This document shows, piece by piece, positions 13,347 through 24,257 of a stretch of DNA of 64,000 bases (position 1 is its first letter; the number at the start of each line of letters is the position of its first letter). The position numbers and the translations under genes were made by a program. The notes under the pieces were generated by a model that searched no databases, was not told where the DNA came from, and was given only the letters and a program-made list of their open reading frames with translations. The stretch comes from Dysgonomonas sp. ZJ279 (GTDB lineage Bacteria; Bacteroidota; Bacteroidia; Bacteroidales; Dysgonomonadaceae): NCBI RefSeq assembly GCF_011039205.1, contig NZ_JAAKEL010000013.1, positions 1-64,000 of the forward strand. Direction: 5' to 3'.

Positions 13347-14099
13347 ATGCTAGCAAAAAGAATAATTCCTTGTTTAGATGTAAAAGACGGAATGACCGTA
13401 AAAGGTACAAACTTTGTCAATCTCCGTCAGGCAGGCGATCCCGTCGAATTAGCGATTCGTTATTGTAAAGAAGGTGCTGACGAACTTGTTTTTCTCGATA
13501 TTACAGCTTCGCACGAAGAACGAAAAACATTTACAGATTTAGTAAAACGTATTGCCGAAAATATCAACATTCCCTTTACGATTGGTGGAGGTATTAACGA
13601 GCTATCGGATGTAGACCGGCTGTTAAGTGCAGGAGCCGATAAAGTGTCTCTGAACTCGATAGCTATAAGAAATCCTAAAATAATAGAAGAAATAGCGAAA
13701 AACTTTGGTTCTCAGGTGTGTGTTTGCGCAATAGATGCTAACTTTGAAGATGGCGCATGGAATTGTTACACAAGTGGCGGACGTATTAAAAGTGACAAAG
13801 AGCTTTTCTCATGGGCAAAAGAGGTTGAAAATCTTGGTGCAGGAGAAATCCTTTTCACAAGTATGAGCCATGATGGTGTGAAGACAGGTTACGCCAATGA
13901 GGCATTGTGCCAACTGTCCGAATCGTTGAATATTCCGATTATCGCATCAGGAGGTGCAGGTAGTATGGAACATTTCCGCGATGTGTTTACACAAGGAAAA
14001 GCTGATGCAGCATTAGCGGCAAGTGTTTTTCATTTCGGCGAGATCGATATAAAAGATTTGAAAGATTATTTGAGAAAAGAGAATATAAACGTAAGATAA
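13347..14099 (+). CDS. hisF: Imidazole glycerol phosphate synthase, cyclase subunit
   Basis: A 250-residue (beta/alpha)8 barrel partner of HisH. Catalytic Asp11 ([11 protein letters not shown]) and Asp130 ([13 protein letters not shown]) are at the canonical positions, and the [11 protein letters not shown] phosphate loop is present. It normally would lead straight into hisIE, but a four-helix-bundle gene with inverted-repeat ends separates the two. Confidence 0.96.
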
Positions 14100-14104
14100 T
14101 GATG

Positions 14105-14117
14105 AATTATAAATTAT
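14105..14117 (+). repeat. Left inverted-repeat arm of the four-helix-bundle cassette
   Basis: AATTATAAATTAT occurs 5 bases after the hisF stop and matches, in reverse complement, 14478-14490 exactly. The match continues beyond the arm: GAGTGATGAA here corresponds to GAGTTATGAA in the right arm once a 7-base insertion there is skipped. The arm runs up to the start codon of the gene inside. Confidence 0.8.
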
Positions 14118-14122
14118 GAGTG

Positions 14123-14467
14123 ATGAATATAGTAAAAGATAAAAGCTATAAATTCGCCATAAGAATTGTTCGTTTATATAAATTCCTGACGAATGACAGA
14201 AATGAGTTTGTCTTAAGTAAACAGCTCTTGCGGAGTGGAACAGCAGTTGGAGCTTTAGTTAGAGAAGCTCAAAATGGAGAAAGCAAAGCGGATTTTATAC
14301 ACAAAATGGGCATAGCCCAAAAAGAATGCGATGAATCAATATACTGGATCGAATTACTTAAAGATACAGAATATATAAAAGAGTATGAATTTCGAACCAT
14401 ACATAATGATGCAACTGAAATATTAAAAATAATCAGAAGCATCATTCTGACTTCAAAAAATTCATAA
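14123..14467 (+). CDS. Four-helix-bundle protein (S23/Avd-like) inserted in the his operon
   Basis: A helical protein of about 114 residues of the four-helix-bundle family, related to the 23S rRNA intervening-sequence S23 proteins and to the diversity-generating-retroelement Avd protein. Family signs are IRIVRLYKFLT in helix 1, LSKQLLRSGTAVGALVREAQ in helix 2, a KADFIHKMGIAQKECDES helix, and IYWIELL. Starts at GTG 14120 or ATG 14123 differ by one residue. It lies between hisF and hisIE and is bracketed by AT-rich inverted repeats, suggesting a small inserted cassette. Its function is unknown; RNA or nucleic-acid binding is plausible from the family. Confidence 0.8.
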   Translation: MNIVKDKSYKFAIRIVRLYKFLTNDRNEFVLSKQLLRSGTAVGALVREAQNGESKADFIHKMGIAQKECDESIYWIELLKDTEYIKEYEFRTIHNDATEILKIIRSIILTSKNS

Positions 14468-14490
14468 CTCATAACTTATAATTTATAATT
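14461..14490 (+). repeat. Right inverted-repeat arm of the four-helix-bundle cassette
   Basis: The segment contains ATAATTTATAATT (14478-14490), the exact reverse complement of the left arm, preceded by TTCATAACTC, which matches the inner part of the left arm with one mismatch. The first bases overlap the last codons and the stop of the enclosed gene, so the repeat forms the gene's 3' end. It ends 7 bases before the hisIE ATG. Confidence 0.8.
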
Positions 14491-14497
14491 AAATAAC

Positions 14498-15094
14498 ATG
14501 ACTCTCGATTTTGATAAAGTAGGCGGACTCATCCCTGCCATTATACAAGATAATGAAACCAATAAAGTATTGATGCTTGGTTATATGAACCAAGAAGCTC
14601 TTACTAAAACAAAAGAGATTGGTAAAGTAACATTTTTCAGTCGTACTAAACAACGCCTATGGACTAAAGGCGAAGAAAGTGGTAACTTCCTCAACGTAGT
14701 AAGTATTGTTGATGATTGCGACCACGATACATTACTCATAAAAGTAAACCCTGTTGGCCCTGTTTGCCACACAGGAACAGATACTTGCTTCAACGAAGAG
14801 AATAAAGAAGATATACTCTTCCTGAAGTACCTTCAACACTTTATAGAGAAACGCTATAAAGATATGCCCGAAGGTTCTTATACGACCTCGCTTTTTGAGT
14901 CGGGTATAAACCGTATGGCACAGAAAGTTGGTGAAGAGGCTTTAGAATCTGTTATAGAGGCATGCAATGGCACAGACGACCGCCTAATCTACGAATCGGC
15001 AGATATGCTCTATCATTTGATCGTATTACTTACATCAAAAGGACTGAGTATTGAAGACCTATCTCGCGAACTTCAGAAAAGACATAAAAAATAA
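14498..15094 (+). CDS. hisI: Bifunctional HisIE (PR-AMP cyclohydrolase / PR-ATP pyrophosphatase)
   Basis: A 198-residue fusion. The N-terminal HisI domain (about 1-105) has VLMLGYMNQEAL, FFSRTKQRLWTKGEESGN, the metal-binding DDCDHDTLL and the Cys-bearing PVGPVCHTGTDTCF. The C-terminal HisE domain (about 110-198) has RMAQKVGEEALESVIEA and an ESADMLYHLIVLL helix. It catalyses the second and third steps of histidine synthesis. hisG, hisD, hisC and hisB are not in this window. Confidence 0.96.
   Translation: MTLDFDKVGGLIPAIIQDNETNKVLMLGYMNQEALTKTKEIGKVTFFSRTKQRLWTKGEESGNFLNVVSIVDDCDHDTLLIKVNPVGPVCHTGTDTCFNEENKEDILFLKYLQHFIEKRYKDMPEGSYTTSLFESGINRMAQKVGEEALESVIEACNGTDDRLIYESADMLYHLIVLLTSKGLSIEDLSRELQKRHKK

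Positions 15095-24186: not shown

Positions 24187-24257
<71 letters not shown>

Follow-up and report, generated by a model that had tools for sequence, protein, structure and literature searches.

The DNA analysed here (the window), 64,000 nt of Dysgonomonas sp. ZJ279 (G000), carries a small gene between hisF and hisIE that is framed by the two arms of an inverted repeat, and both host genes are intact around it. The features of the junction, in window positions, are the following.

13347..14099, + strand: hisF, the left host gene, which in 6 congeners joins hisIE without a spacer (ATGA overlap)
14097..14128, no strand assigned: left arm of the inverted repeat, made of RTTATRA-type heptamers, with the core AATTATAAATTAT at 14105-14117 and the ATG inside (repeat search, flank score)
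14120..14467, + strand: ORF of an S23 (23S-rRNA-IVP) four-helix-bundle protein, starting at GTG 14120 or ATG 14123 (PF05635, TIGR02436, 2RLD, AlphaFold)
14459..14491, no strand assigned: right arm, a 7-bp tandem array of 4.6 units, reverse complement of the left arm, with the stop codon inside (TRF, repeat search)
14498..15094, + strand: hisIE, the right host gene

The S23 ORF comprises 114-115 codons and ends with a TAA at 14465-14467. As an earlier sequence-only reading had described, a perfect 13-bp inverted repeat brackets the gene (copies at 14105-14117 and 14478-14490) and continues imperfectly to the start and stop codons: the extended arms, 14097-14128 and 14460-14491, are 88% complementary over 32 nt and enclose both the ATG and the stop codon. 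The tandem 7-bp units were placed by TRF at 14459-14490 (4.6 units). In flank scoring the S23 ORF reached 24, while the other 56 of the 57 window ORFs scored 15 or less. The 13-mer alone is not unique, being found 8 times in the 4.1-Mb genome versus 2 times for the reversed pattern, whereas the inverted 13-mer pair is unique. RNA folding of the cassette gave a z of -5.7, with the paired arms closing the ORF in a loop. The cassette sits between two protein genes, outside any rRNA gene, and its genome holds two S23 genes. Elsewhere in the window, a perfect (TC)33.5 dinucleotide run occupies 24190-24256.

Profile searches bore out the proposed S23-type assignment of the gene, with matches to PF05635 (E 1e-26, 93.5 bits, curated cut-off 33.8) and TIGR02436 (E 9e-30, 103 bits, curated cut-off 24). 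The AlphaFold model of the protein (pLDDT 95.8) folds into four helices, and its best structural match is 2RLD (59% identical over the model, five chains deposited), the S23 protein BT_0352 of B. thetaiotaomicron; further matches are 2GSC, an S23 protein of X. campestris, and, more distantly, the DGR accessory protein Avd (4DWL and 8UB7, TM 0.76-0.80, 12-15% identity). Both 2RLD and 2GSC belong to the family of the window protein and are annotated as of unknown function; to our knowledge, S23/IVP proteins have no known function even though structures were solved in 2006-2007. All these structures were deposited with five chains or within Avd assemblies, and for 2GSC a homopentameric ring has been reported (quoted in PMC4990558). 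The fold is thus common to Avd and the window protein (TM about 0.8), but their identity is low and retroelement parts were not identified beside the cassette, whose immediate neighbours are his genes. The Pfam search of the window protein returned PF05635 only and no recognisable catalytic domain; a Y1/HUH tyrosine transposase is absent by Pfam and by fold, and the full-length cassette holds the single S23 ORF and no transposase gene. S23/IVP proteins were found in 157 of 198 sampled Bacteroidota genomes, with up to 16 copies each.

The anatomy of the cassette is general. A comparison covered 106 Bacteroidales S23 genes from relatives, representing about 70 sites (75 synteny groups under a two-sided rule, 67 under a looser one). 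The inverted-flank alignment score had a median of 21 among these copies, compared with 10 for swapped flanks, 10 for shuffles and 12 for the direct orientation, and with 10 for 236 neighbour ORFs (P = 8e-31). The flanks are also periodic at 7 bp, with a lag-7 self-identity of 0.43-0.49 versus 0.25 in sequence 400 bp away. The same anatomy was seen in plasmid-borne S23 genes of Nostoc, Dolichospermum, Planktothrix and Euhalothece (Cyanobacteria), Bernardetia and Chlorohelix (Chloroflexota), with arms such as AATTCGTAATTCGTAATTCGTAATT ... AATTACGAATTACGAATTACGAATT. The S23 ORF and its arms behave as one unit that is found at many unrelated gene junctions, mostly inside operons and in the coding sense. 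Copies with similar ends, whose lack the sequence-only reading had named as refuting its idea, thus exist in number. The ends are inverted, but instead of one fixed terminal repeat they are 7-bp arrays specific to the protein type, a feature which that reading had not noticed. Within a synteny group the copies are mostly inherited in place. Identity between the closest copies of one genome reaches about 67% at most, which gives no indication of a recent burst of the gene-bearing form. With these observations and the lack of a recognisable catalytic domain, the earlier suggestion that the protein could help its own spread is not supported in the form given. That the arms serve to ensure a stop codon in every frame was considered and rejected: TAA recurs at +7/+14/+21 (0.23/0.26/0.17 versus about 0.05) and the arms close all frames in 53% of cases versus 26% of controls, yet the genes themselves do not end in TAA more often (0.72 versus 0.70), and frame closure is therefore at best a side effect. 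As a separate observation, plasmids of Dolichospermum, Planktothrix and Chlorohelix carry heptamer-armed S23 genes with drmD (DISARM-type helicase) on one side and a pglX/N-6 DNA methylase gene on the other (L315, L317, L320).

Arm types vary widely among the copies and include RTTATGA, GGTTAAT, GTTACRA, CAGTTAA, GGCTAAT, AATTAGCAAATT and GC-rich forms. When one copy per site was compared across non-syntenic sites, protein identity predicted arm similarity (Mantel r 0.15-0.17, 0/500), while it predicted little of the similarity of flanks 300 bp away. When the shuffling of arms was confined to each genome, the excess of 3.43 versus 1.07 +- 0.47 was reached in 0/2000 shuffles, compared with 0.44 versus 0.22 (42/2000) for the far-flank control. 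A further set comprised 80 S23 genes whose products share 59-74% identity with the window protein. Their sources include Chryseobacterium, Spirosoma, Pedobacter, Elizabethkingia and Ignavibacteria, and nearly all of their arms fell into two related classes, RTTATGA and GGTTAAT. On the tree of these 80 proteins the arm class changed 3 times versus 18.3 times in shuffles (0/500), and one assembly, MKRO01, holds one cassette of each class (L172, L227). The heptamer sequence thus differs between copies and tracks the protein phylogeny, not the host or the site, and since the arm class follows the protein tree, arms and gene move and diverge together. Such co-divergence is the pattern that would be expected of a protein reading its arms.

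Across the genus, the S23 ORF occupies the hisF-hisIE junction in G000 alone and is absent from all 18 other congeners with hisIE. In line with the expectation of empty sites in relatives, the junction is empty (ATGA overlap, no spacer) in 6 of the 17 congeners with adjacent genes, G000 included in the 17. In G003 the junction holds 63 bp with the left arm of G000 (AATTATAAATTATG), a mini-element or remnant without a gene, G005 has 53 bp of GTTACGA-type heptamers, and the remaining congeners have unrelated spacers of 29-972 bp. The closest cassette lies one junction upstream, at hisA-hisF of Dysgonomonas sp. 521 (G019), where the protein is 71% identical, the arms are the same and the left arm now supplies the hisA stop codon. 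The same arms are found at different sites (hisF/hisIE in G000, hisA/hisF in G019, and C7 of G005) with proteins that are 68-71% identical. A further presence/absence site was found between G003 and G020, which are 92-94% identical around three sites: at one a 492-bp cassette stands against 22 bp, and at the two others an S23 cassette in G020 stands against an unrelated ORF of about 570 bp in G003 at the same junction. In the genus of G160, another site is filled in seven species and empty in G129; searching by DNA in the genus to which G168 belongs did not recover the Chryseobacterium site.

Filled and empty sites were compared between species, not strains, and no target-site duplication was seen at hisF-hisIE, where the stop/start overlap has been rewritten, or in the G003/G020 pair, which is only 92-94% identical; the search for such duplications that had been proposed therefore yielded none that could be read. 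No near-identical filled/empty pair was found among phage and plasmid records because S23 genes are rare in both, with 4 IMG/VR contigs in the scan and 2 phage records, and 25 plasmid records, mostly cyanobacterial. Many unrelated small inserts occupy the hisA-hisF and hisF-hisIE junctions across the genus, and these junctions are therefore hot spots in general. At hisA-hisF, small unrelated ORFs, some of them GNAT acetyltransferase-like, are inserted in several congeners (L140, L150, L151, L154 and L149). From the ORFs that replace S23 cassettes in the G003/G020 pair (L360, L361 versus L076, L077), operon junctions in Dysgonomonas appear to be places where single small genes are exchanged.

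Inverted heptamer pairs also occur between genes without an S23 gene, at a spacing of 10-60 bp and up to about 100. Such pairs were located at rpoB-rpoC in G000, at moxR-DUF58 in G005, at several places in G012 and G005, and in G003. The rpoB-rpoC pair (G000:C12 about 228615-228706; L406:8615-8706) is of the GGCTAAT type, which no S23 gene of G000 carries. In the A/C-type regions inspected, all pairs have one polarity, with TTA-type units on the left and the complement on the right, as a description of regions picked from array matches and not a blind test. In G005, homologous gene-less elements lie on either side of nuoK, one at the nuoJ/nuoK junction and one at nuoK/nuoL (L471:583-925); the two are 85% identical over 155 nt, non-repeat interior included. 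Their interior score was 33.5 versus a shuffled maximum of 19.5, and this similarity indicates that the mini-elements copy themselves or are copied. In long intergenic regions of G000 (L036:1501 and L038:1501; C23 and C54), heptamer arms adjoin another repeat, tgtcattccgaaacrtagtgaggratctact, in a repeat mosaic.

The number of arrays was related to the number of S23 genes. In an unbiased period-7 scan, three genomes with S23 genes (864 kb scanned) yielded 18 arrays and three without such genes (800 kb scanned) yielded 0. Searching 25 congeners with a pattern that covers RTTATGA and GTTACRA arrays, whose matches overlap within an array and are thus not element counts, gave 0-6 matches where no S23 gene is present (seven congeners), 0-17 where there is a single one (five) and 12-143 where there are at least two (thirteen). 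Array matches correlated positively with S23-gene number (rho 0.80, P 1e-6), also in independent contrasts on the hisF tree (r 0.80, sign-flip P 0.0016), and the reversed-pattern control was near zero. The fit is not class by class: G012 has 99 A/C-type matches and three S23 genes with other arm types, and G016 and G008 likewise have many A/C-type arrays and S23 genes of other arm types. Either the matching S23 genes have been lost or another factor spreads these arrays. The idea of a mobile cassette, put forward from the sequence alone, is thus upheld in part, by a unit at many unrelated junctions, empty sites and gene-less derivatives, and not in respect of target-site duplication and recent spread.

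With confidence that is evenly balanced, we propose a REPIN/RAYT-like system in which an unrelated Avd-fold protein would recognise heptamer arrays and the arms, with or without the gene, would form the dispersible unit. A cassette consists of one gene for a pentamer-forming four-helix bundle (S23/IVP, Avd fold) and inverted arrays of about 4-6 heptamers, whose type the protein would recognise in its own arms. The arms may disperse with or without the gene and settle at gene junctions, as RAYT genes and REPIN hairpins do, and one cassette would have arrived at the hisF-hisIE junction of the Dysgonomonas his operon, with start and stop codons from its own arms. TRAP reads repeated triplets, and a five-fold ring might similarly meet about five heptamers, one unit per subunit. 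The S23 protein may help the spread in trans by way of a DNA hairpin or an RNA intermediate; because it has no known catalytic domain, a host enzyme would be needed for movement.

RAYT genes are diverse, single-copy and repeat-flanked, have their closest relatives in other genomes, and are accompanied by hairpin-forming doublets in a long co-evolution (PMC3116915). S23 cassettes share with REPIN/RAYT systems (PMC3116915, PMC2817692) a diverse single-copy gene flanked by its tied repeat, nearest relatives in other genomes, co-diverging repeat types, dispersed inverted doublets that form hairpins, and a repeat number that depends on the gene (rho 0.80; contrasts r 0.80), the match type by type being imperfect (G012). 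They differ in having a four-helix bundle instead of a Y1/HUH tyrosine transposase and heptamer arrays instead of REP palindromes. With a protein other than a Y1 transposase and repeats other than REPs, the S23 cassette is not a member of REPIN/RAYT, although by this comparison its behaviour is closest to those systems.

Against the proposed system stand the lack of clear target-site duplications and of recent in-genome bursts, some array classes without a matching S23 gene, and an occupation of junctions that is not S23-specific, with unrelated small ORFs at the same junctions in relatives. The system could instead be driven by a different enzyme, such as a RAYT or a reverse transcriptase, or by replication slippage in certain hosts, with arrays and S23 genes as passengers; the S23 proteins would then only bind the arrays, for example in regulating their own operon, and so co-diverge with them. 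We consider this somewhat unlikely. It would fit proteins without known catalytic residues, genes without in-genome bursts, and the wealth of A/C-type arrays in G012, G016 and G008 without an S23 gene of that arm type, but the array number follows the S23-gene number after correction for relatedness and the arm type follows the protein type even under within-genome arm shuffling.

Less probable still, and in our judgement unlikely, is an RNA-level element like the intervening sequences (IVS) of rRNA, in which the arms would pair in the polycistronic transcript, RNase III would cut the stem and free the S23 mRNA loop, and any spread would proceed via RNA. The protein family and layout are those of the Coxiella IVS, in which RNase III cuts a terminal stem of 28 bp (PMC4990558), and the window cassette folds with paired arms (z = -5.7) while cassettes lie mostly in operons in the coding sense. 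Yet the own arms of class B pair no better than swapped ones (17.0 versus 17.2) and those of class A only somewhat better (17.8 versus 14.8, 0/5000), none of the copies examined here is recorded in rRNA, and gene-less pairs are also found at convergent gene ends in the same genomes. Exact RNA pairing as a conserved trait was rejected, the complementarity being mostly explained by the shared heptamer class. Compared with rRNA IVSs that carry an S23 ORF (Leptospira, Coxiella; PMC4990558), the cassettes are alike in an ORF of about 115-120 codons, terminal inverted repeats, a unit of about 400-430 nt and a sporadic distribution, and unlike in their place between protein-coding genes, in 7-bp arrays specific to the protein type, and in gene-less relatives genome-wide. 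That the gene is simply an old member of the operon whose AT-rich flanks are a coincidence is highly improbable: same-site inheritance is common in the genus at other S23 loci, but the flank controls, the empty sites and the absence of the gene from hisF-hisIE in every other congener with hisIE refute it.

The reading of S23 cassettes as a REPIN/RAYT-like system also touches on heptanucleotide tandem repeats, which are known as cyanobacterial STRR and as the TAACTGA repeats of Beggiatoaceae, Cyanobacteria and Bacteroidetes (PMC4679880). These resemble the S23 arrays in their 7-bp period, intergenic location and some unit types (TAACTGT/TAACTGA), but they are described with no mention of an S23 gene and with almost no inverted pairing, whereas the S23 arrays are inverted and tied to a gene. 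In the open literature, subscription journals and preprints lying outside the search, no report of a link between S23 genes and heptamer arrays was found, and S23 cassettes are apparently an undescribed, widespread family. Heptanucleotide arrays of Bacteroidota, Cyanobacteria and Beggiatoaceae had been described without a mechanism; that the arm type follows the protein type and that arrays occur with S23 genes joins two open questions, which are now amenable to direct tests of binding and mobility. S23 cassettes would represent a second candidate for a REPIN-like system, one free of a transposase. It is possible, and we suggest it tentatively, that a large and so far unrecognised class of bacterial miniature elements with heptamer-array ends has in the S23 proteins its dedicated, sequence-specific movers. 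If true, this would explain both the function of S23 proteins and the origin of the heptanucleotide repeats in Bacteroidota and Cyanobacteria, and the rRNA IVSs would be a special case that landed in rRNA.
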